IMG/VR virus record: IMGVR_UViG_3300004463_000073
Span: 1 to 21,666 of that record
Length of the DNA stretch: 21,666 bases
DNA from: a virus
Reading direction: 5' to 3' (one strand)
Below the pieces are notes generated by a model. The model was not told the DNA's origin. It saw nothing but the letters and a program-made list of their open reading frames with translations, and ran no database searches. Positions within the stretch are counted from its first letter, which is position 1. Each line of letters opens with the position of its first letter. Positions 4,662-21,666 of the stretch are shown piece by piece. A program made the position numbers and the translations under genes.

Positions 4662-4957
4662 AAAGGGTCGTCACCCTCTCCGATCAGGGAGCGCAGCTGC
4701 TGGGTCCATTCCTTCCAGGCCCGAGCAGGCACCATCTGAGCCGCCGTCGTCCCGTTGGTCAGCCCCAGCCTTGCAGCCGATCGATTGAAAATCTCACGGC
4801 TGATCTCCAACGGATGGGCGGCAACGTCGGGATAGACAGCCATCGCTTCCACGATGTCATCAGCTGTTGCGTAGGCGACGATCCGATCGATCTCCTCGCG
4901 CGTCAGCCAATGCGGCTGCTCCGGTGCCTGCTGCTGAAGCTCCTGATCAAAGTCCAT
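4613..4957 (-). CDS. Tail assembly chaperone (gpG-like)
   Basis: 114 residues between the major tail protein and the tape measure region, the conserved place for the first tail assembly chaperone. The N-terminus (WLTREEIDRIVAYA) and the Asp/Glu-rich helical body fit the family. The start overlaps the major tail stop as TGATG. Near its 3' end it holds a perfect X-XXY-YYZ slippery heptamer, read in frame as C-CCT-TTA. Chaperones of this type bind the tape measure protein during tail assembly and are not part of the virion. Confidence 0.75.
   Translation of the reverse strand: MDFDQELQQQAPEQPHWLTREEIDRIVAYATADDIVEAMAVYPDVAAHPLEISREIFNRSAARLGLTNGTTAAQMVPARAWKEWTQQLRSLIGEGDDPLPEASDLSLISAATGE
4661..4667 (-). 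promoter_or_regulatory. Slippery heptamer CCCTTTA for programmed -1 frameshifting
   Basis: On the minus strand the gpG frame reads GAC-CCT-TTA, giving C-CCT-TTA in X-XXY-YYZ phase. The -1 frame opens only just upstream of this point, after a TGA, and runs to 4485. A 5-bp hairpin (AGAGG, 7-nt loop, CCTCT; 4642-4658) follows two bases later, which is closer than usual for a stimulatory structure. Confidence 0.7.
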
Positions 4958-5391
4958 CAGGACGGTGACTCCGAATCGTGCCAGGTGACTGCAGATGTGA
5001 CTGCCACATCGAAGCTGAATGCCCTTGCCTCACCAGGATCGTCAGGACCGTAGAGCGAAGGATTCAGCTGAATCTGAGTCTCAAAGCTGCGATAGCGGGC
5101 AGAGTCTGTCCGGTCCCACAGGTCAGCGCGAACACGCTTGCCAACAAGGGCTGACCAGCGGCTGTCTGTCTCATCATTCACGGTCACTTCCATCGTGGCG
5201 CCCACGGTGATGTCATCCGGAATCTGGAAGTTGCCGCAGAAGGTCGTCACGTCCGTTGTGGGAGTGTCGACCGTCAGCTCAACGCTGCTCATATCGCAGC
5301 TCACGTCGACCGCGGCGCCGTCCTCTTCACCTTCAGAGTCGAGAGGCTGAAGATGGAGCAACGGTCGATAAACGATGATCGGTGCGACCAT
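4957..5391 (-). CDS. Major tail protein (probable)
   Basis: 144 residues placed between a tail terminator-like gene and the tail assembly chaperone. The sequence is rich in beta-strand residues (VELTVDTPTTDVTTFCGNF, TMEVTVNDETDS), consistent with a tail tube subunit. A strong ribosome-binding site, GGAGGAG, lies 8 bases before the ATG, the best site in this module and fitting for a highly made structural protein. One base separates it from the upstream stop. It is somewhat short for a major tail protein, and no additional Ig-like domain is seen. Confidence 0.65.
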   Translation of the reverse strand: MVAPIIVYRPLLHLQPLDSEGEEDGAAVDVSCDMSSVELTVDTPTTDVTTFCGNFQIPDDITVGATMEVTVNDETDSRWSALVGKRVRADLWDRTDSARYRSFETQIQLNPSLYGPDDPGEARAFSFDVAVTSAVTWHDSESPS

Positions 5392-9263: not shown

Positions 9264-10640
9264 TCAGTATATCTCTGCCGTCAACGGCGGGGCTGATGCC
9301 AGCCAGACGGCGCGGATGGCTGCGAGAAATCCAGTAATTGAGCGATCTGATCTAGCAGGCTCAACGATCCAAGCGGTTGTGCCTGTGTGCTTCCTAGCTG
9401 TGTACGGTCGATCGTCTGAGACTGGCTGCGCGTGCTGCCAGACAAGCTCTCCTGTTTCAACGGCTCTGACGAAGCGTTCTGAAGCATTGGCGTATTCCTG
9501 CCCGTTGATGGCTTTGGCCTTGTCAAAGTACCTGGCTAAGTCCTGATCGGTCCATGGATCAAAGCCAACCATCTGCACCTGATCAGCCTTGGCCTGCTCT
9601 TCCAAGTCCGTAGCCAGCATCTTCTTGTTGATCGGACTGCCGGTGAAGTCCCTGACGATCAGCCCCAGCTTGCCATCACTCTGACGCCACGCATACGCCA
9701 CTGAAGCACGGCTACCATCACTGCTGACGCTGATGCCCATGAATGGCCGTACCGGCTCTTCCGTGTGCCCTCTGGCCTGCTGCCAGGCAACGTCAGCCAC
9801 AGCGGCAGGTGCCATGCTCACAACCCAGCGGCACAGATGCTCTGTCTCGAAGATACTCAGCTCATTGGCATCGCGGTACTTCTCGTACAGAGCTTGAATC
9901 CGATCGATCGTGAGCGGTCCATAGCCGATGGAAGGATTGGCCTGCAGCCAGCCTTCACGGTCATCAACCGCCAGAGCAGGATCAGCGGACCATTCCTTGT
10001 ACGCCAGTCCTGGTGCACCTGAAAGGGCACGCGCTCTGAGATCGTTGAGAACGATCGAATCCTCATCCCCGGCATTCGATCGGTACACAACCTGTGGATC
10101 AGTCGAAGCTGTAAGGGTCGGCTCTGCAGCTGCGATGAAGTCGAAAGATTCGTACTCCCTGATCTCATCGATAATCAGCGTGTCTGCAGAGTGGCCGCGT
10201 ACGCCCTTCTGTGGCGCAATGATCGTATAACTACCACCTGATCCAGAAAGCCTGATCTCTTCCTGACCGTTGGCGTATCTGACCTTGGCCCACGGATAAG
10301 CGTGAGCCACGCGGATGAAAACGTGGCGCGGAATAATCCGGTTCTGTGCGGTATGCAGCACGCGTCGACCTTCATCAAGGTCAGCCACGATCCGCGGGAT
10401 CAGCTCTTCAGTCTTTCCGTTCTGGCGTGCGACAACGTCGGCATCTTCGAAGTAGCGCAGCTTTCCCTGCTCATTTGTCTCCAACGAAATCCACAGGGAA
10501 TACCGCTGCCAAGGGTAGAGAGTGATCCCAAGCCTCTCAGCGGCTCTGTAAGCGGCTTCTGCACGCGAAGTGGCACCAGGTACCGGGCCGATACGTGGCG
10601 CGCCTTCTAGAGCCGTCTCCGTGGCTTGTAGGGCATTCAC
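9264..10640 (-). CDS. terL: Terminase large subunit
   Basis: 458 residues. The ATPase half has a Walker A-like motif VVARQNGKTE (residues about 69-78), RGHSADTLIIDE with the Walker B motif near 155-159, and a coupling motif near VVYRSNAG. The nuclease half has GISVSSDGSR, MVGFDPWTDQ and a C-terminal DRSITGFLAAIRA with acidic residues in the expected places for the RNase H-like nuclease. I chose the GTG at 10640 because it gives the 4-base GTGA overlap seen throughout this genome; an upstream GTG at 10658 is the alternative. No small terminase gene is recognised, although an HNH gene lies close upstream. Confidence 0.92.
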   Translation of the reverse strand: MNALQATETALEGAPRIGPVPGATSRAEAAYRAAERLGITLYPWQRYSLWISLETNEQGKLRYFEDADVVARQNGKTEELIPRIVADLDEGRRVLHTAQNRIIPRHVFIRVAHAYPWAKVRYANGQEEIRLSGSGGSYTIIAPQKGVRGHSADTLIIDEIREYESFDFIAAAEPTLTASTDPQVVYRSNAGDEDSIVLNDLRARALSGAPGLAYKEWSADPALAVDDREGWLQANPSIGYGPLTIDRIQALYEKYRDANELSIFETEHLCRWVVSMAPAAVADVAWQQARGHTEEPVRPFMGISVSSDGSRASVAYAWRQSDGKLGLIVRDFTGSPINKKMLATDLEEQAKADQVQMVGFDPWTDQDLARYFDKAKAINGQEYANASERFVRAVETGELVWQHAQPVSDDRPYTARKHTGTTAWIVEPARSDRSITGFLAAIRAVWLASAPPLTAEIY

Positions 10641-11536
10641 GCTGTCAGCCGCTGCCACTGGTCCCTGACGCGCGGGTAGTCGTGCCAGGTTCTCAGGTAA
10701 TTCATCCCAACCTCGGCCCAGTGCTTCCGCGTCTGTGGGGATTCCACCAGCATTAGCAGCACATCGTAAATGGACGATTCATCCGCTGGCGCGAATGGCA
10801 GATAGCCGATGCGATCTTCCATCCTTGCCAGCGTTTCATCGTCCGCGCCCGCGATGACTGGCTGATGCATTCCCCACGATTCCAGAGCATTGCAGCCGTA
10901 GCCTAAGACGACCTGATCAAAGTAGATGTCAGCAGTGGCCTTCCGACGAAGGCACTCGGCCCACGTCACATTCTCGATGATGTCAAGGTCAACCGGATAG
11001 CCCTCGTCCCTGAGGCGGTCAACAGCTGCGATCAAGGCAGCAGTGGACTTCAGGGCACGATTGGTCGGAGCGTGGGCAATCTTCACGCGATCCCCTTGGG
11101 ATGTCCGGCAGAGCGATTCCAGCCAATTGACATCGTAAGGAGCTGGTAGCCAGGGCAAGCCTGATCGTGCTTCCAGGTCTAGCGTGCTGACCACGCCCAT
11201 CGCGCCGGGCCAGGACTGCAGCTCGCGCATGTGCCGCATTCGTTCCTTCATATCGAAGGTCGAAGCACCGTGATAGTGGATGAGAAAGCGCTTCTTCTTG
11301 CTGACCGGCAGGTGCCGCAACGCCCAGCGAATGCTCTTGAAGCCATGGTGGCTGTAGACGATGTCCGCTTCCTGCCACAGCTTGATGGCTAGGTTCCGAT
11401 CCCATTCCAGGTCATTCGGGTAGTCGATGTAATTCTTGGCGTTGACCATCGATCGGAAGTCAGGCTTCAGGGCTTCTGCCAGCCGTCCGCTGATTCCGGC
11501 GCAGTCAGCCCCAGCGATGAAGCTGAAGGTCGACAT
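10637..11536 (-). CDS. GT-B glycosyltransferase (family 1/4-like)
   Basis: 299 residues with a two-domain GT-B look. The N-terminal half includes EADIVYSHHGF and RFLIHYHGAS; the C-terminal half has KIAHAPTNRALKST, a segment typical of the acceptor/donor switch, then the donor-binding motif FDQVVLGYGCNALESWGMHQPVIAG with the conserved ExxGxP-like ESWGMHQPV. It has no signal or membrane segment, so a cytoplasmic enzyme is expected. A poor ribosome-binding site precedes the ATG. It sits directly before terminase, away from sugar genes. The role could be glycosylation of virion proteins, DNA base decoration or host-surface change; the sequence alone does not decide. Confidence 0.75.
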   Translation of the reverse strand: MSTFSFIAGADCAGISGRLAEALKPDFRSMVNAKNYIDYPNDLEWDRNLAIKLWQEADIVYSHHGFKSIRWALRHLPVSKKKRFLIHYHGASTFDMKERMRHMRELQSWPGAMGVVSTLDLEARSGLPWLPAPYDVNWLESLCRTSQGDRVKIAHAPTNRALKSTAALIAAVDRLRDEGYPVDLDIIENVTWAECLRRKATADIYFDQVVLGYGCNALESWGMHQPVIAGADDETLARMEDRIGYLPFAPADESSIYDVLLMLVESPQTRKHWAEVGMNYLRTWHDYPRVRDQWQRLTA

Positions 11537-11604: not shown

Positions 11605-11891
11605 TTCATCTTTAAAAGGGGAGGTAGTTTTTGATGACTAGCATCTGTAAACCGGTTGCTGCCTAAAAAAACTCCACCCTTCTTCAGATTGCAGCGTCTG
11701 CACGCAGCCTGCAGGTTACTGAGGTCGTCACTGCCACCATCCATGCGGCTGATGATGTGATCAACCGTAGTGGCTGCCTCTGTGCATCCAGGTAGGTGCA
11801 CTCTGCATTTCCACTGATCCCTGATCAGTACCTGCTTCCTCAGAATCTTCCACAGACGAGGATTCGAATGGATGATGCTGCTGCTGGTCAT
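11592..11891 (-). CDS. HNH endonuclease
   Basis: 99 residues with a clear HNH fold: [26 protein letters not shown] with the catalytic His, [17 protein letters not shown] with the Asn/His-region and a second CxxC; the four Cys form the zinc site. The start overlaps the tail-collar gene by ATGA. In many phages a small HNH protein near terminase assists DNA cleavage during packaging, which is a plausible role here. A free-standing homing endonuclease is the alternative. The C-terminus is short and basic ([12 protein letters not shown]). Confidence 0.85.
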
Positions 11892-12745
11892 AGCTTCATG
11901 ATGTAGGCGATGGCGTAGTACGGCGGCTCACTACCCACCGTCTCATGGGCGGTATGGGATAGGGCTGCATGCTGAGCCACAGCAGTACCTGCATGGGGGA
12001 CCGATGCCACTGCACCTGCTGGTGCCAACGTGGCCTGCCCTGCACTTCGAAGAGAACCACCAGTAGCAGCACTGCCCATGAGATGAGTACCAGTGGTAGT
12101 GCCTGTAGTGCCGCCTTGCAGCTGCTCTGTGTGAGTATGTGTCTGCACTTCCGTATGGGCATTGGGCTGAGTCACTGAGTGCGTCTGTGCAGCATGGTCA
12201 CTGTGAGCTGCATGGCCGTGAGTAGCACTGCCACCTGTGCTTCCAGGGTTCTGACCGTTGGCTGCACCCTTGACGAAGCGATCTCTCAGGTCCGGAGTGC
12301 CATTGGCACCGTTGCACAATGCCCAGCCTGAAGGGATGGCTGACAGCAGCCCGCTCCACATGGCGATGATCCCAGCTGGGATGGAAGCATTCGAACCGGC
12401 TGGGCCTTGTGGGCCAGTATCGCCAGTATCACCCTTCGGGCCGGGAATGCCTTGCGGACCCTGCAGGCCAGGATCGCCTTGATCGCCTTTCGGACCAACG
12501 CTGCCAGTGTCTCCCTTGTCGCCTTTCGGGCCAGTCTGCCCTTGTGGCCCCTGTGGCCCTTCCGGACCAGCGGCACCGTCTGAGCCGTCGACTCCATCCG
12601 CACCTGGTGGCCCTGGTGGCCCTTCTGGTCCCTGCTCGCCTTCTGGTCCCTGTGGCCCGACTACGCCACCTTCATCGTCAAGCCCAATCAGCGATACCAG
12701 GAATTCCCGATAGCGGCGGTAGCGGCGTGGAATGCCGTTGCTCAC
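11888..12745 (-). CDS. Collagen-like tail-collar fibre protein
   Basis: 285 residues. After a basic N-terminal segment (RRYRRYREF) there are 30 uninterrupted Gly-X-Y triplets (residues about 30-119, bases 12389-12658), which should form a collagen-like triple helix. Residues about 122-165 form a phage tail-collar domain ([20 protein letters not shown], then [11 protein letters not shown]). The C-terminal part is rich in His pairs ([15 protein letters not shown]) resembling metal-binding repeats of short tail fibres, and ends [10 protein letters not shown], typical of collar proteins. It is a trimeric adhesin by inference. It lies in the lysis region, far from the tail genes. Confidence 0.85.
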
Positions 12746-13446
12746 TTCTCAAACACCGATCGGTCAGGGAACAGGTTGCGGACGAATCTGCCAGCCTTGC
12801 TGTAGCGAAACAGGATGTCACTGGTACTCAGCATCTTCCACTGCTCATAGTCATCGGCAGTGTTGCGGTAGACCTTCACGTCCTCTGATTCCTTGCCTTT
12901 CAGCTTCTGCAGATTGCCGTACACCGTCCGAAGGTGATAGCAGTCCTGCTTGCCTCTGAGGCTCAGCGTTTCCCGCATCGCATCCTTGTGGACGAGTATC
13001 GGACTATGCATCTCGTAGCTGTACAGCGGATTCTCGACGCCAAGGTTCTGCAGCGTCTCCTGAGCGTGAATCATGCCCTGCACATAGTGACCGCTATGGC
13101 GTGCCAGGTAGTCACTGATCAGCTCCTGCAGCAGTCCGCGGTGCAGCATCGGAATGGCCCGCATCTTCCGCAGCATGAAGAAGTCATCATTGAAGAGCCA
13201 GAACGGATCAGAGACATCATCTGACTCGATCGCAGCCAGCAGGTTCGCTTCAGCAGAACGGTACTTGTTGGCCTGCTGTGGAACGGGAATACGGTTTACG
13301 TGTCCATTGAGCCAGGACGGGATGAAGCCTGAGATATGGACTGTGGCATGAGGAACGTTGCTCAGGCTGCGAAGGCTGTAGCGCAGCTCCTCGTTCTCAT
13401 CTCCGCTCCTGACCGGATAGACGATGTCGATCTCTGAGGCCTTCAT
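12742..13446 (-). CDS. Stealth-like hexose-phosphate transferase / glycosyltransferase
   Basis: 234 residues starting [20 protein letters not shown]. This corresponds to the conserved region 1 pattern (IDxVY) of Stealth proteins, and [10 protein letters not shown] at about 83-92 matches conserved region 2 (NDD). Stealth family members transfer hexose-1-phosphate in capsule or wall polymer synthesis; many phages carry shortened relatives. I chose ATG at 13446 because it gives an ATGA overlap with the endolysin stop; a longer frame to 13497 only overlaps the endolysin. It follows the lysin directly and precedes the collagen-like fibre. Possible roles are virion glycosylation or masking of host receptors. 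Confidence 0.65.
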
Positions 13447-14219
13447 ACCAGATGACACAGCTCTTTCTTCACATACCGGAAGCCGCCATTCAGCCATACG
13501 CGGTACCAGCTGCCATCATCGTTGATCACCAGTGGTGCCGTCTTGTGAAGTGACAAGGCAGCGTCCAAGGCTGCGATCCGAACACCGTTGCGATAGATGC
13601 CGTCGACTCTGCTGGTGGCATAGATATTGGCTGAGCCTACGTCCAGGTCCGGAGTACTTCTGACGTTAATGCCAGGACCATTCAGCCGGACTCTCAGCCC
13701 CGGAATAACGATCGGCCTGATGCGTGGATCATTGGCAAGGCTGCCACCAGGCAGGAACAGCCGCGGATCATAGATGAAGGTCCGGGCGATGTTCTGGCTG
13801 TCGACCTGGCGCATCAGCACCGTGAAGTGGGAGTGGTTGCCTGTGGCGGTACCGGTACTGCCCACTCTGGCGATCACTTCGCCTCTTCGGACGCTTCTGC
13901 CGACTGGGAGCATGATGCTGCTGCAGTGAGCGTGTTCGTACCAGACGTTCGGCCTGATCTCCACCTTGACGCATAGGCCGCCGCCGTTGCTCTTCCAGCC
14001 TGCTTCCACGACTCTGCCAGCCTCAGAGGCCAGAATCTCCGTGCCCAAGCCAGCAGCCAAGTCCATAGCTGCATGGAAGTGCTGGTAGAAGCGAAGGCCA
14101 CTGAAGGGCTGCCAATAGGCCACAGTGGCTGATGCGTACATGGCTGGCTCTGCCAGCAGTCGACTGGGACCAAAGCCCTGTGTCAGCACACTGCCTGGAA
14201 TGGGCGGTAGCAGAGCCAT
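13443..14219 (-). CDS. M23 metallopeptidase endolysin with SH3-like domain
   Basis: 258 residues. The peptidase domain spans about residues 10-150 and shows the zinc-site pattern of LytM/M23 enzymes: HFHAAMD (His49, Asp53), EHAH (His98) and GNHSHF (His129/His131). Residues about 173-258 resemble a bacterial SH3 domain (RLNGPGINVRSTPDL, GSWYRVWLNGGFRYV) for wall binding. It has no signal peptide, so export depends on the holin. It cleaves peptide cross-links in peptidoglycan. The start overlaps the upstream stop by 1 base. A tail-associated wall hydrolase is possible, but the neighbouring holin-type genes favour a lysin. Confidence 0.88.
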   Translation of the reverse strand: MALLPPIPGSVLTQGFGPSRLLAEPAMYASATVAYWQPFSGLRFYQHFHAAMDLAAGLGTEILASEAGRVVEAGWKSNGGGLCVKVEIRPNVWYEHAHCSSIMLPVGRSVRRGEVIARVGSTGTATGNHSHFTVLMRQVDSQNIARTFIYDPRLFLPGGSLANDPRIRPIVIPGLRVRLNGPGINVRSTPDLDVGSANIYATSRVDGIYRNGVRIAALDAALSLHKTAPLVINDDGSWYRVWLNGGFRYVKKELCHLV

Positions 14220-17164: not shown

Positions 17165-18151
17165 TTATGTCACTGTATTCAGTCTCATCTCCTTCTTCTG
17201 AAAACGTTTCTTCTGATGCCAGGTATACGCTTCCAATGCTCCTAGGAAGCCCATATAGTCATCTTCTACGGTAGTTGGATACTCAATAAGTCTCCATCCT
17301 GTGTCTGTGTATAGGTCAGGCCTCAGATGCAGTACTCCGGTACGGTCAATCTGTGGCATGGGATACGGGCGAGGATCACCAGGCAGGATGATGGCATCAG
17401 CCCAGCGGTAGGCCGCCAGCTGCAGCCCATACTCCGGATAGATGCCCTTGGACGTCTTGATGTCGATCAGCCACAGCTCCGATCTAGGATTAGCATTCAG
17501 CCTTGACTGCTTCTCAGATGAGATCGGTTCGGCTGGCAATCGCATCAGAACGTCATAGGTGCCGCCATAGCCAGCAGCACTCCATACCATCTTCTCTGAG
17601 CTGACGATCGAAGAGCCGCTGTAACGGCCTAGAAAGCCCCTGTACGCTTCCAGGTAGGGAATCCACTCTTCCGGTACTAGACCAGCCTCTACGGCCTTCT
17701 CAGTGGCTTCCAGCCCATCTCTCGTCTCAATATCTGCCAACAGATGGACGCCACTGCCGATCTTGGCTGCTCTGTCTCTAGCTTCATCGGCTGTAGCAAT
17801 CGCTGCCTTGATCAGCTCGTCATTCAGAGCAGGAACCGGAGCATTGATCGTGGCGGCATCCAGAGCCACCAGCTGATACATAGCCTTGGCAGCCTCACGC
17901 TGCTTCCAATTGACCAGGTCCCACTTCATCAGCACATCGAGTACAGACGTGGCACCTGGAACCGGACCCTGACCATTGAAGTAGTAGCGGTGATCATCTG
18001 TCCGAAAGGCACCTGGTGGAAGCAGACTCTTGACAGAGGCTGGTGCAGGTTCGAAGATGGGTTCTCCGATCCCCTTCGGGTGATCCGGCAGAGGGCTTGA
18101 AGCCGTCAGCATCTGATTCAGACTGGCGGCTTCTTGCTGTTCAGCGCTCAT
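17165..18151 (-). CDS. Cas4/RecB-like PD-(D/E)XK exonuclease
   Basis: 328 residues. I start at ATG 18151, which overlaps the methyltransferase stop as ATGA; a longer frame to 18307 merely crosses that gene. Visible motifs: GATSVLDVL (about 66-74), GSGVHLLADIE with His136, GGTYDVLM with Asp200, LWLIDIKTSKG with Asp230 and Lys232, and YGLQLAAYRWAD with Gln244/Tyr248, the QxxxY signature of RecB/Cas4-type nucleases. No Cys set for an iron-sulphur cluster is apparent, unlike true Cas4. In phages such enzymes resect DNA ends for recombination. The following ssDNA-binding-like gene supports that. Confidence 0.82.
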   Translation of the reverse strand: MSAEQQEAASLNQMLTASSPLPDHPKGIGEPIFEPAPASVKSLLPPGAFRTDDHRYYFNGQGPVPGATSVLDVLMKWDLVNWKQREAAKAMYQLVALDAATINAPVPALNDELIKAAIATADEARDRAAKIGSGVHLLADIETRDGLEATEKAVEAGLVPEEWIPYLEAYRGFLGRYSGSSIVSSEKMVWSAAGYGGTYDVLMRLPAEPISSEKQSRLNANPRSELWLIDIKTSKGIYPEYGLQLAAYRWADAIILPGDPRPYPMPQIDRTGVLHLRPDLYTDTGWRLIEYPTTVEDDYMGFLGALEAYTWHQKKRFQKKEMRLNTVT

Positions 18152-18717
18152 AGCGAACCCCACTGTTCTGCCATCGCATCGGCAATCCCCTGCAGCGTCC
18201 TGCTGCGTTCCTTCCAGCGGTCGGGACCGGGAGACGCATGGTGCACCCGCGGCTGTCGACCATCCACAATATCTGTCGGCTGCAGCTTCGGCAGGTTCTT
18301 CAGCCACAGGCAGGTTGCCTTCGTCTCACCATGGCCGAACATCCACGGCTGGATTATCTGATCCGGCTTCCTGATCTTCGTGCTGATGACGCTGATCGGA
18401 TTCTCGATCGCAATGCGCGGAATATCAGCATCCATTAGTCGACGGACGAATAACAGAGCCTCTTCCTGCTCCTGCTGCTTCTCAGCGAACCACCTTGCTC
18501 CGGAGACAGCCAGGTGCTGGCATGGGGGATGGGCAATGAGGAGATCAGGCCACTGATCAGCCGCATCCAGCATGGTCAGCGCAACCATGATGTCAGTCTG
18601 CAGGTGCGGTCCCGGTCGCTCAGACGGCAGGAGATCGACAGACAGTGCATCATTCCCTCTGGCCCTGAAAGCGTCTCTGACAATGCCTGAGAATTCACAG
18701 GCCACCAGCACTCTCAT
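18148..18717 (-). CDS. Cytosine-methyltransferase-like protein
   Basis: 189 residues. Motif I-like VACEFSGIVRDAF, motif IV AHPPCQHLAVSG with the expected nucleophile Cys66, and motif VI IENPIS are all present, followed by FGHGETKATCLWLKNLP and RWKERSRTLQGIADAM, a segment conserved in phage members of this group. The protein is much shorter than standard C5 methyltransferases and lacks an obvious target-recognition domain. No restriction enzyme is nearby. It may protect phage DNA or take part in another C5 modification of pyrimidine bases. It is coupled by ATGA overlaps on both sides. Confidence 0.78.
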   Translation of the reverse strand: MRVLVACEFSGIVRDAFRARGNDALSVDLLPSERPGPHLQTDIMVALTMLDAADQWPDLLIAHPPCQHLAVSGARWFAEKQQEQEEALLFVRRLMDADIPRIAIENPISVISTKIRKPDQIIQPWMFGHGETKATCLWLKNLPKLQPTDIVDGRQPRVHHASPGPDRWKERSRTLQGIADAMAEQWGSL

Positions 18718-18884
18718 GCCTCATCCTCCTGCTTCCAGCGCAGCCGTGCCTGGTGGCAGTCAACGTGGAACGTGAATCTGACATCTGCCAGCAGTTGCGG
18801 AACGTGCAGCTTCCGGTGCTGATGCTCTTCGGCTGGGTAGACGTGCTTGTTGCAGTACACGCACTTGGGAAGGTCGTCAGTCAT
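18714..18884 (-). CDS. 56-residue zinc-finger-like microprotein
   Basis: 56 residues (MTDDLPKCVYCNKHVYPAEE...), with Cys8/Cys11, His21/His23/His27, His40, Cys43 and His44. A CxxC pair near the start and an HxxCH group near the end make a plausible single zinc site. The start overlaps the upstream stop by ATGA and the end overlaps the methyltransferase start the same way. Function not recognised. Confidence 0.7.
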   Translation of the reverse strand: MTDDLPKCVYCNKHVYPAEEHQHRKLHVPQLLADVRFTFHVDCHQARLRWKQEDEA

Positions 18885-19009
18885 CGCTTGTTCCGATCGT
18901 CCAGCCAGTCAGTCAGTGCCGGTCCAACCAGGTAGTAACCGAGCCAGAAGCCGATGGCAGTAGCAATGAAAACGATCAGAGCCATGACCAGGATGGAAGC
19001 CAGCATCAT
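18881..19009 (-). CDS. 42-residue single-pass membrane microprotein
   Basis: 42 residues (MMLASILVMALIVFIATAIG...). Residues 3-28 form one strong membrane segment, followed by a charged tail (LTDWLDDRNKR). It overlaps both neighbours by ATGA. The pattern fits a small inhibitor or modulator of a membrane process, but no family is recognised. Confidence 0.7.
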   Translation of the reverse strand: MMLASILVMALIVFIATAIGFWLGYYLVGPALTDWLDDRNKR

Positions 19010-19197
19010 CGCACCCGCGTCTTTTCATAGCTGTACGCAATCCCCTCTACCCAAATCTCCAGCCGCCGCACCTTCACGGAATGCTGCACTTCCAGTGCGA
19101 TTAACGCTTTCTCCACCATCGTCAGTGCTGTTTGGTGGGAAGCCTCCTGCTCCTGAGTCAGTGGCGCATCAGTCTCCCAGTAGTAGACGTAATCCAT
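19006..19197 (-). CDS. 63-residue hypothetical protein
   Basis: 63 residues, rich in aromatic and charged residues (MDYVYYWETDAPLTQEQEAS), with a central helix (TALTMVEKALIALEVQH) and a C-terminal strand pair (VRRLEIWVEGIAYSYEKT). The ATG shares one base with the upstream stop (TGATG). No Cys pair and no membrane segment. Function not recognised; codon phasing and tight coupling support that it is real. Confidence 0.7.
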   Translation of the reverse strand: MDYVYYWETDAPLTQEQEASHQTALTMVEKALIALEVQHSVKVRRLEIWVEGIAYSYEKTRVR

Positions 19198-19358
19198 CAG
19201 CGGTCACCATCCGCGGCACGCGATGCCGTCTCCGACTGGTGGCAATTCTCACAGTCGGGATAGCGGCAGTCCTCTTGCACTTCCAGCGGGTAGGTCAGCT
19301 CACAGCCACAGGTATCGCAGTGATCGAACCATGGCTGCACTTCAGGCAGACTCTTCAT
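19197..19358 (-). CDS. 53-residue zinc-ribbon-like microprotein
   Basis: 53 residues (MKSLPEVQPWFDHCDTCGCE...), with Cys14, Cys17, Cys19, Cys31, Cys36, Cys39 and His40, enough for a two-CxxC zinc ribbon. It starts by ATGA overlap on the previous small gene and ends in the TGATG that starts the next. Function not recognised. Confidence 0.7.
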   Translation of the reverse strand: MKSLPEVQPWFDHCDTCGCELTYPLEVQEDCRYPDCENCHQSETASRAADGDR

Positions 19359-19504
19359 CGCTGCTTCTTACCTTCCCATCGCTCGATGAGCTTCCACCAT
19401 TCCGGTGATCGTGGCTCATGCGTGCGACAAGCAGTGCAAGTCTGCTCTTCATCAGTCGTCTGAATGTACTGGCAGCGGCGGCACAGCCTGTAAGTAGGGA
19501 TCAT
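19355..19504 (-). CDS. 49-residue zinc-ribbon microprotein
   Basis: 49 residues (MIPTYRLCRRCQYIQTTDEE...), with CRRC at 8-11 and CTAC at 23-26, a compact zinc ribbon, followed by an aromatic/basic helix (EWWKLIERWEGKKQR). It overlaps both neighbours by ATGA. Possible roles are nucleic-acid or protein binding. Confidence 0.72.
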   Translation of the reverse strand: MIPTYRLCRRCQYIQTTDEEQTCTACRTHEPRSPEWWKLIERWEGKKQR

Positions 19505-19599
19505 CGCTGCTTCCACTCTTCATTGATGGCCCAGCCGTACAGAGCCATCGTCAGGCCGACGATCAGGAAGATGATGGCGAATAGAAGTGCTGTGCCCAT
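19501..19599 (-). CDS. 32-residue membrane microprotein
   Basis: 32 residues (MGTALLFAIIFLIVGLTMAL...), one membrane segment at about 3-24, then NEEWKQR. The box AGTGAGGTT lies shortly before the ATG. This is the first gene of the coupled micro-gene run. Function not recognised. Confidence 0.6.
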   Translation of the reverse strand: MGTALLFAIIFLIVGLTMALYGWAINEEWKQR

Positions 19600-19605
19600 T
19601 CTGAA

Positions 19606-19724
19606 ACCTCACTCTCAGATGTACTCACCGGCTCCCGTCGTAGCCGGGAATACGAAACCGCCCCGACTGACCAGTGGTGAGGTAGTCAGCGGGACGGTGG
19701 ATGGACTCTACCATGCAACCTCAC
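19606..19724 (-). promoter_or_regulatory. Leader with duplicated ribosome-binding box and internal complement
   Basis: The 9-mer AGTGAGGTT occurs before both the leader ORF (plus 19717-19725) and the first micro-gene (19605-19613). Between them ACCTCAC (19677-19683) is complementary to the GTGAGGT in both copies, so the RNA could hide one site or the other. A 6-bp GC-rich hairpin (CCGGCT/AGCCGG, 19628-19647) lies at the end of the leader ORF. Confidence 0.4.
19625..19714 (-). CDS. 29-residue leader ORF
   Basis: ATG at 19714, 15 bases after the predicted transcription start, with AGTGAGG as ribosome-binding site 5 bases upstream. It encodes MVESIHRPADYLTTGQSGRF followed by nine more residues. 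No known family. It contains the ACCTCAC that can pair with the downstream ribosome-binding site, so its translation could control the following gene. It could be a true microprotein or a leader peptide. Confidence 0.45.
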   Translation of the reverse strand: MVESIHRPADYLTTGQSGRFRIPGYDGSR

Positions 19725-19735
19725 TTGCGTGGAGA

Positions 19736-19764
19736 ACCGTACTGCTCTACCTATACCCTGTCAA
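19736..19764 (-). promoter_or_regulatory. Sigma70-type promoter for the early operon
   Basis: Minus strand TTGACA (19759-19764, a perfect -35), 17-base spacer, TACGGT (19736-19741, TAnnnT). It lies in the largest intergenic gap, right after the stop of the 64-residue gene. GGGTAT occurs twice around the -35, 11 bases apart (plus 19753-19758 and 19764-19769), one helical turn, and could form an operator. Confidence 0.6.
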
Positions 19765-19768
19765 TACC

Positions 19769-19963
19769 CTACTTATGTACTAGGTCAAAGTCGATTACGG
19801 CTTCCTGGCCGATCGTAAGCAGCAGCTCCTGTCTCTGCCGTCTGTGCCATGTCAGATTCTCAGAACAGGCCTGACATACCCAATCAGGCTGCATCGGCCT
19901 CTGTGACGCGCTCCTAGCCTCACGGCGCATGTTCTGAAGCAGTCTGTCCGTGCCATCGATCAT
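19769..19963 (-). CDS. 64-residue zinc-binding protein
   Basis: 64 residues. A basic N-terminal helix (DRLLQNMRREARSASQR) is followed by WVCQACSENLTWHRRQR, a CxxC pair with a nearby His. The ATG lies 4 bases after the fibre-gene stop. It closes the late operon, directly before the main promoter. Function not recognised; an incomplete HNH or zinc ribbon is possible. Confidence 0.6.
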   Translation of the reverse strand: MIDGTDRLLQNMRREARSASQRPMQPDWVCQACSENLTWHRRQRQELLLTIGQEAVIDFDLVHK

Positions 19964-19967
19964 CAGC

Positions 19968-20687
19968 TCAGCCTACCCATACCACCTGCACCCTGCCAAC
20001 CGCGGCTGCACCCGGTGGCTTGACGGCAACCATGATCGCGCACCTGTGGTTGTCACTGTTGCCACCAGAGGCTGAAGCGGTCCTGGTCCCAGTCGCGCCA
20101 GCTGATGCAAACGTCTCAGTGCACGTCTCCGCTGATGTATGCGTCTGTCCGGTACCGGAAGTCTTATCCTGCCGCTCTGTCATGGTGCCTGGTGGAGTCC
20201 AAGCACGAAGAGCTGATTGGCTGGCATTCATGCCAAAGAAGGCGACCAGCAGACGATCAGCCCCATTGGTGGTCAGTGTTGGAGCGATCGTGTTGGTCGT
20301 TCCACCAGATGTCTCAGCCTGACCGCTTATGGCATCCAGCCAAGCCGTGCTGGATGACGCATCCTGCCCAGTGATATAGACCATCTCCAGCACACAGTGC
20401 CGGTTGGTCACCCACGTTGGCGTGTAGCTGGCTGGCTCTGAAGAGGCGATGCGGTAGTAGAGCGCCATACGCTCAGTCGTGGCTGATGCAATCTGAGATG
20501 CAGCAGCATCTGGTACCAGCGTCCAGCCAGTGAAGGTGATTGTGCCGGGGTCGTTCCTGTGCGACATCAGGCACAGCATCAGGTCACCGTTGGAGACTCC
20601 AGCTGGAACGTTGATCGCCAGGGATGTCTGACCGCCCGCTGTCGTCGTTCCAGCGTTTGTGCTGTTGCCGTAGGCAGGAGCTGCCAT
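19968..20687 (-). CDS. Fibre-like structural protein
   Basis: 239 residues, ATG at the base right after the TAG of the Gp37-like gene. The sequence is Thr/Ser/Gly-rich with beta-strand pattern (TTAGGQTSLAINVPAGVSNG, TITFTGWTLVPDA, ERMALYYRIASSEPASYTPTW, DRLLVAFFGMNAS), typical of virion surface or fibre beta-sandwich proteins. It has the lone Cys residues of a folded extracellular protein but no enzyme motif. Its place after the tail-tip gene suggests a tail-tip accessory or receptor-binding protein. Confidence 0.7.
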   Translation of the reverse strand: MAAPAYGNSTNAGTTTAGGQTSLAINVPAGVSNGDLMLCLMSHRNDPGTITFTGWTLVPDAAASQIASATTERMALYYRIASSEPASYTPTWVTNRHCVLEMVYITGQDASSSTAWLDAISGQAETSGGTTNTIAPTLTTNGADRLLVAFFGMNASQSALRAWTPPGTMTERQDKTSGTGQTHTSAETCTETFASAGATGTRTASASGGNSDNHRCAIMVAVKPPGAAAVGRVQVVWVG

Positions 20688-21666
20688 CTAGGTACGGCGC
20701 ACCTTCAGAGCCAGCGTGGCTCGCGTGGCAGTCGTGATCGAATCGACGTTGAAGCGCAGTGTCTGACCGGCACTGATCGCTGTAGTCCATCCGGTCAGGG
20801 TCGTATCCTGGCTCTTCGTGGCAGAGCTGACAGTCGGCTTGGCTGAAGCCGTGATGGAGTCGCCCACGACGGGCGGATAGTTGGCATACGAATCCTTCCA
20901 GATGTCGACCACGATCGACCCTGACTGATCCAGCAGCAAGGTGGCTGACTCAATCACGCAATCAAAGTCAACGACAACGTCTCCCTTGATGCCAGTAGTG
21001 ATAGCAGAGCCGCCACCGTCAATGATGAAGTTAAGGGTCGACCGCAGCGGATTCCACTTCAGGCCAGTCGTCTCTGCCGAATCAGCCTGCAGCACATAGC
21101 CATTGGTGCCGACCGACAGCAGCGATGGAGTGTCATTGGCGCTGGCACCGATCAAGTCACCCTTGGCGTTGAAGGTCGACTTGGCGATGTAGTCGGAGTG
21201 AGGCGATCCAGCGTGCGTGCTGTCGACAGTCGGACTGGCCCACGTTCCGCCCAGCTCACCGCCCGGTGTAGTGCCAACGACGATCTCACCGGACAGCCCA
21301 GCCTGAGCCGTGCCCACGAGGTAGTCGGCAGTATCAGGAGCTGCACCGCTGCTGCCTGCAGGAGCTTCAGGTACCCACTCACCTGCCGTGTCATCCCACG
21401 TCAGAACGTCGCCGTCAGCTGCTCCTGCACTGCTGATGTGACTGGGCGGATGGTAGTTGCCGGCATCAGGAGCAAGCAGGCCATGAGCGTGTTGATGATC
21501 ACAGCGGGAAGCAGAGCTATCGGTCCCAGCCGTCTCATCATCCTGAGCAACCGTATCCAGCGGAGCATCACCGCTTGTACCCGGCGTACCCGGTGTACCA
21601 GGACTGCCATCAGTGTCAAAGCTGGTGACAGTGACGTTATCCTGTGCCGCATTATCCTGAAAGGCG
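20688..21666 (-). CDS. Minor tail/fibre protein, C-terminal part of the 912-residue Gp37-like protein
   Basis: This is the continuation of the gene starting at 1816; bases 21611-21666 are the duplicated overlap. The C-terminal third begins with a short Gly-X-Y run (SPGTPGTPGTSG), then fibre-like sequence with a His cluster (CDHQHAHG) and segments typical of phage fibres (AADGDVLTWDD, AKGDLIGASANDT). It ends ALKVRRT followed by TAG at 20688-20690. The next gene starts at the adjacent base. Viewed in this linear window alone, a shorter protein starting at 21317 could be called, but that is an internal fragment of the long frame. Probable role: receptor-binding or tail-tip fibre. Confidence 0.85.
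   Translation of the reverse strand, partial: AFQDNAAQDNVTVTSFDTDGSPGTPGTPGTSGDAPLDTVAQDDETAGTDSSASRCDHQHAHGLLAPDAGNYHPPSHISSAGAADGDVLTWDDTAGEWVPEAPAGSSGAAPDTADYLVGTAQAGLSGEIVVGTTPGGELGGTWASPTVDSTHAGSPHSDYIAKSTFNAKGDLIGASANDTPSLLSVGTNGYVLQADSAETTGLKWNPLRSTLNFIIDGGGSAITTGIKGDVVVDFDCVIESATLLLDQSGSIVVDIWKDSYANYPPVVGDSITASAKPTVSSATKSQDTTLTGWTTAISAGQTLRFNVDSITTATRATLALKVRRT
21611..21666. repeat. Terminal redundancy, right copy
   Basis: Exact copy of bases 1-56 and the other half of the circularisation overlap. Removing one copy gives a 21,610-bp circle. Confidence 0.95.

Follow-up and report, generated by a model that had tools for sequence, protein, structure and literature searches.

A conserved three-hairpin leader ahead of a coupled chain of microprotein genes in a small tailed phage

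Hairpin RNAs that open an early phage transcript or lie close to its start are known from HK022, whose putL lies just downstream of an early promoter, forms two stem-loops within ≈70 nt and acts without a phage protein (PMC9378689). Tandem hairpins in a gene-control leader are known from the Guanidine-II (mini-ykkC) riboswitch, for which a kissing contact of the two hairpins upon guanidinium binding has been proposed (PMC7544219), and small early phage proteins acting on host functions include lambda Orf73/TraR-like, Aqs1 and T7 Gp0.4 (reviewed in PMC11323111). Here we describe a locus that can be compared with each of these, found in the window, by which we mean the whole stretch of 21,666 nt of viral DNA analyzed. 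Its leader resembles HK022 put in its place (PMC9378689) but comprises three hairpins with mutually complementary loops, one of which holds a Shine–Dalgarno site, and binding of polymerase by it is only hypothetical. Like the Guanidine-II riboswitch, it would be a gene-control leader whose tandem hairpins are suggested to make loop–loop contacts, but it sets two GUGAGG loops against one CCUCACC loop and has no match in Rfam. The cassette of genes behind it resembles the reviewed phage proteins (PMC11323111) in small size, clustering and likely expression from a single promoter, but shares no Pfam, PHROGs, NCBIfam or PADLOC family with them, and we infer from position only that the operon is probably early.

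The source of the window is a small, soil-type tailed phage. An exact 56-bp direct repeat stands at its two ends (1–56 and 21611–21666) and on this basis we consider it a complete, circularly assembled genome of ≈21.6 kb. The recognizable genes all lie on the minus strand, as do all window features given below with descending coordinates, and include a portal protein (Pfam), a capsid-region protein with a prohead-protease domain, an M23 peptidase, and a terminase identified through its similarity to actinophage terminases; this similarity, together with that of the exonuclease, gives only a hint at the host. The cassette sits between the last tail-type genes (20688–21665 and 19968–20687) and a DNA methyltransferase gene. 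An extra 64-aa frame with one C-x2-C and a good codon score (19769–19963) stands just upstream of the promoter and is without a counterpart in the syntenic relatives. These relatives were collected with the structural protein encoded at 4957–5391 as bait, which returned 11 further contigs, most of them 80 to 85% identical in the bait protein. Six contigs (L118, L119, L120, L123, L125, and L126) span the region from the tail genes to the exonuclease/methyltransferase and with the window make up the seven genomes compared below, all metagenomic and equivalent to only about four independent lineages. Three other baits were tried and set aside: the methyltransferase (80 loci, no cassette homologues), the large terminase (distant relatives, with G006 carrying a different small-gene series before its methyltransferase), and an exonuclease profile (just two distant contigs added, both lacking the leader).

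A sequence-only reading of the window had described seven tiny genes of 29, 32, 49, 53, 63, 42 and 56 codons, and all seven frames are indeed present on the minus strand. Six of them stand as real genes on the grounds of coupling, synteny and selection, but the frame of 29 codons belongs to the leader RNA. From the 32-aa gene onward every start overlaps the preceding stop as had been claimed (ATGA four times and TGATG once), and the coupling continues unbroken from 19599 to 18714, then by ATGA into the methyltransferase gene, and from there into an exonuclease gene that starts at 18151. When frames of 28 aa or more are counted, the longest coupled chain has seven members, a length reached by none of 1000 dinucleotide shuffles of the region; the shuffle maximum was six (4 of 1000), and antisense windows gave chains of three at most. 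Codon-usage scores, trained on the confident genes of the window, strongly support the 32-, 63- and 42-aa genes, give good support to the 56-aa gene and weak support to the 49- and 53-aa genes, while the long antisense frames on the plus strand score like noncoding sequence. These features of the sequence define a polycistronic operon of six microprotein genes, a DNA methyltransferase gene and an exonuclease gene.

The gene-order comparison proposed in that reading bears the cassette out, since all six relatives that cover the region carry a coupled small-gene cassette in the same place. Content varies from one to the next and parts recur: a C-x2-C…H-x2-C protein is found in all six relatives and the window, a six-Cys protein and single-pass membrane proteins in L118, L119, L120 and L123, and helix-turn-helix proteins in L118, L125 and L126. 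Purifying selection, for which dN/dS on aligned relatives had also been suggested, is evident in close pairs (0.03–0.49, mostly <0.3): pairwise values are 0.19 and 0.24 for the CCHC proteins, 0.11 to 0.12 for the six-Cys proteins, 0.17 to 0.49 for the SRW family, 0.35 for a membrane protein and 0.03 to 0.05 for two others. All of these compare one relative with another, no relative being close enough to the window's own copies, and they are rough because synonymous changes approach saturation in several pairs; all point in the same direction. A LuxR/GerE-type helix-turn-helix protein of 63 aa (L125, 11695–11886; L126, 1509–1700) is 97% identical between its two carriers, with a dN/dS of 0.05.

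The first gene of the chain (19599–19501) encodes a single-pass membrane microprotein of 32 aa with a codon score of 0.58 per codon, and the fifth (19009–18881) another of 42 aa with a score of 0.54 per codon; their 19-residue hydropathy maxima of 2.49 and 2.74 agree with the two membrane proteins recognized earlier, and homology to the membrane proteins of the relatives cannot be shown. The three Cys-rich proteins previously read as zinc-site proteins do carry the corresponding Cys/His patterns, and all three are likely to bind zinc, as judged from these motifs. The 49-aa protein (19504–19355, ATGA-coupled) is zinc-ribbon-like with a C-x2-C…C-x2-C arrangement; its weak similarity to Spt4/RpoE''-like zinc ribbons is subthreshold (Pfam E 0.0011, 19.5 bits against a cut-off of 25; NCBIfam E 0.001, 19.1 against 108). 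The 53-aa protein (19358–19197) has the pattern C-x2-C-x-C…C-x4-C-x2-C-H, and its six Cys, His and C-terminal GDR are all common to the proteins in the same place in L118, L119, L120 and L123; a profile of these relatives' proteins does not find it by score, and homology is likely, not proven. The six-Cys genes end in Gly-Asp-Arg codons read as GGTGACCG or GGTGATCG directly before the next start (e.g., window 19197–19205), an ending that may be conserved not for the protein's sake but because ribosomes bind there to start the next gene. The 63-aa protein (19197–19006) has a homologue in L119, which finds the window gene with an E value of 4e-6 within the window's frames; AlphaFold2 predicts a β-α-β-β fold with good confidence (mean pLDDT 89.5) that has no significant match among PDB or viral models.

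The last microprotein of the chain, of 56 aa (18884–18714), combines a C-x2-C…H-x2-C site with a predicted C-terminal helix in a low-confidence AlphaFold2 model (mean pLDDT 61.6), and profile comparison with the PDB gave weak, nonsignificant matches only. A profile built from the relatives' CCHC proteins only ranks it first of 610 frames (E 0.0025), and C8, C11, H40 and C43 are invariant in the seven sequences. No other cassette family was detected in every one of the seven leader-bearing genomes. That no family would be recognized holds for all of the microproteins, whose matches in Pfam, PHROGs, NCBIfam and PADLOC fall below the curated cut-offs; the PADLOC defence models gave only weak matches (the 49-aa protein to DruE, E 0.019, and the methyltransferase to MTase_II, E 0.0047), and neither viral contigs nor phage isolates yielded a match when the microproteins were used one by one as queries.

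The 29-codon frame (19714–19625) is uncoupled, with a 25-nt gap to the next gene, and its codon score is −0.08 bit per codon. In the relatives it is not kept: the start codon is absent in L125 and L126, L119 reads MGK-stop, and L118, L120 and L123 have different or shifted peptides. Stops and shifts of this kind in relatives are what the sequence-only reading had itself named as grounds for discarding a frame, and there is no coding signal to set against them. We judge from these sequences that the frame belongs to a structured 5′ leader and does not represent a conserved gene. Its loss in relatives also led us to discard attenuation by a leader peptide.

This leader, in three hairpins, is the most unusual feature of the locus and had been missed. 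A promoter-like element precedes it (19764–19736), with TTGACA at 19764–19759, a 17-nt spacer and TACGGT at 19741–19736. The earlier placement of the cassette behind the best promoter holds in part: TTGACA is invariant in an alignment of all seven genomes, 79 to 86 nt upstream of the CCTCACC of the second hairpin loop, but a σ70 consensus scan misses the promoter, and the relatives have TAAGGT, TACTGT or TAGGGT in the −10 place. The first hairpin, HP1 (19728–19715, GCAA-GUGAGG-UUGC), has the same loop on a stem changed on both sides in L123 (ACUG/CAGU). GUGAGG forms the loop in five genomes and lies partly within a stem in L125 and L126; in these two HP1 may form no hairpin in the transcript, because of this position and because it overlaps the −10 box. 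HP2 (19698–19657) is a stem of 16 pairs with the loop CCUCACCAC, in which CCTCACC occupies 19682–19676; CCUCACC is invariant in all seven genomes, on stems that differ in sequence with compensatory changes, and resembles the 3′ end of 16S rRNA. HP3 (19619–19600, UCUGAGA-GUGAGG-UUUCAGA) presents in its loop the Shine–Dalgarno site of the 32-aa gene, and the ribosome-binding site of the first gene lies in this loop in all seven genomes; the loop reads GUGAGU in L119, GUGAAGG in L125 and GUGAGG in the other five. HP2 and HP3 are separated in the window leader by a further GC-rich hairpin (≈19622–19655), which is absent from the relatives.

Folding returns three hairpins in each of the seven genomes (z −2.5 to −7.2 against shuffles), the HP1 loop differing in L125 and L126. 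As DNA words, GTGAGG occurs between TTGACA and CCTCACC in all seven, and GTGAG(G/T) after them in six of seven. Between lineages, compensatory changes are found in all three stems while the loops are nearly fixed; this three-stem count used the pairs predicted for each sequence folded by itself, a procedure biased toward pairing, and the controlled count is that for HP3. There, 36 of 36 cells are paired and the covariation score is 1.03, compared with 0.36 ± 0.10 after shuffling (none of 500 as high) and at most 0.22 when the partner is shifted by one column; MAFFT misaligned the three closest sequences at HP3. In the window the HP2 loop is complementary over 7 nt to the loops of both HP1 and HP3. 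Mismatch-free complementarity between HP1 and HP2 extends over 7, 7, 7, 7, 11, 12 and 10 nt in the seven genomes (with some G–U at the ends); in L123, L125 and L126 the match is longer, and C:G has replaced T:A at the seventh pair. Between HP3 and HP2 it extends over 7, 7, 5, 7, 7, 5 and 7 nt, the 5-nt cases being L119 and L125. The HP1–HP2 contact is thus better supported than HP3–HP2 (7–12 nt versus 5–7 nt), and in the sequences compared the masking half of a putative switch, HP3–HP2, is less conserved than HP1–HP2.

Rfam, with the Guanidine-II riboswitch included, gave no match to the leader at the gathering score or in a permissive search, and no leader-like sequence was found in phage isolates. 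A pattern scan of IMG/VR returned the known relatives and one chance match only, and 84,980 prokaryote genomes scanned for the loop pattern likewise gave chance matches only; a control showed that these matches lack the stems. Elsewhere in the collected loci the three-hairpin architecture occurs at chance level. What these comparisons describe is a compact, covariation-supported RNA that is not in Rfam.

The leader probably controls when the operon is translated. Our preferred reading, which we regard as evenly poised between right and wrong, is that the microproteins are directed at the host or its defences, that their operon is early, and that loop–loop competition for a Shine–Dalgarno site would set its translation. 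Transcription would start within a few bases of HP1, as the position of the −10 element suggests. The CCUCACC loop of HP2 could then pair either with the 5′-proximal GUGAGG of HP1 or with the GUGAGG Shine–Dalgarno loop of HP3. With HP1 holding HP2, the site in HP3 would be free and the first gene translated, and coupling would pass ribosomes, and hence the on/off decision, down the whole chain; with HP1 missing, melted or bound, HP2 would mask HP3 and the whole chain would be off. Candidates for what frees or blocks HP1 are the point of transcript start, a protein, or the order of folding. We put forward tentatively, as a rather unlikely proposal, that phage RNA switches of a new class are represented by this leader, with two GUGAGG loops competing for one anti-Shine–Dalgarno-like loop; if true, translation of the operon would depend on the transcript start or on an HP1-holding factor, possibly a product of the operon itself, of which the CCHC protein is the one shared by all seven genomes.

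Hairpins of this kind might have plainer functions. A 5′-terminal hairpin and a Shine–Dalgarno sequence in an open hairpin loop are common routes to a long-lived, well translated mRNA, and the hairpins of the leader may chiefly protect the 5′ end of the mRNA or hold the ribosome-binding site in place, without acting as a switch. The HP3 loop variants of L119 and L125, which stay Shine–Dalgarno-like but lose pairing with HP2, fit this explanation, which nevertheless leaves both the invariant CCUCACC loop and the covarying HP1–HP2 complementarity unaccounted for; we consider it unlikely. The place of the leader at the very start of the operon, and the comparable two-stem-loop RNA of the early transcript in HK022 putL (PMC9378689), bring to mind a put-like or nut-like antitermination RNA, which would allow transcription to run the length of the operon by binding a phage protein or RNA polymerase. 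Conservation concentrates, however, on loop complementarity and on the position of the Shine–Dalgarno site, neither of which a polymerase-binding RNA needs; no terminators stand out downstream (4 found, 3.5 expected), and Rfam offers no match, so that we find antitermination distinctly improbable. CsrA-type regulation was dropped, as the leader loops lack GGA.

The same words could also be read at the level of DNA, with GTGAGG and CCTCAC as operators bound by a regulator and with hairpins that are no more than incidental inverted repeats. Two direct copies and one inverted copy do lie just behind the promoter, and small helix-turn-helix proteins are encoded in relatives' cassettes, but the flanking arms change in step while the core stays, G–U pairs fit RNA, and the spacing between copies varies, all of which makes operators a very improbable account. 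Finally, the cassette as a whole could be spurious, consisting of chance short frames or decaying gene remnants, as the weak codon scores of the 49- and 53-aa frames might suggest; against a chain longer than in any shuffle, purifying selection and gene order kept in relatives, and conserved Cys/His positions, this is scarcely credible. Phage microprotein genes are abundant, and each frame is usually assessed singly. In this locus, coupling, synteny and selection uphold six frames, whereas the seventh is rejected as part of a folded leader, an example of a short frame being taken wrongly for a gene.

In the competition reading that we prefer, the zinc-site and membrane microproteins would act on host or defence targets, by analogy with what early small phage proteins often do, and the methyltransferase would protect phage DNA from restriction. 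The latter (18717–18148), ATGA-coupled to the cassette, belongs to the phage DNA methyltransferases of PHROG 757 (phrog_757, E 2e-66), whose members are abundant in viral contigs; only its place at the end of a microprotein chain is unusual. L120 has a phrog_757-type gene (dN/dS 0.09 with the window, dS close to saturation), whereas L118, L119 and L126 have no methyltransferase in that place; in L125 a C5-type gene (PF00145; 11883–12587, plus strand) stands in place of the phrog_757 gene of the window and L120, and the two families look unrelated. The exonuclease (18151–17165; phrog_298), next in the coupled chain, is 56 to 60% identical in the syntenic relatives. A methyltransferase of either family or none, small helix-turn-helix proteins, and zinc-site and membrane microproteins that vary from genome to genome, all in the same place, lend indirect support to host takeover or anti-defence, a role that is plausible for the cassette. 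Host- or defence-directed functions are our best guess given this placement, the turnover, the methyltransferase company and the analogy with phage small proteins (PMC11323111). A modular cassette of this composition, with exchangeable methyltransferases, marks a likely collecting spot for host- or defence-directed genes in this phage group. Elsewhere in the window, a protein of collagen-like repeats that weakly matches tail-collar domains (11888–12745) adjoins a Stealth_CR2-like protein (12742–13497, under the curated cut-off) and a GT-like gene (10637–11536) that is present in relatives.
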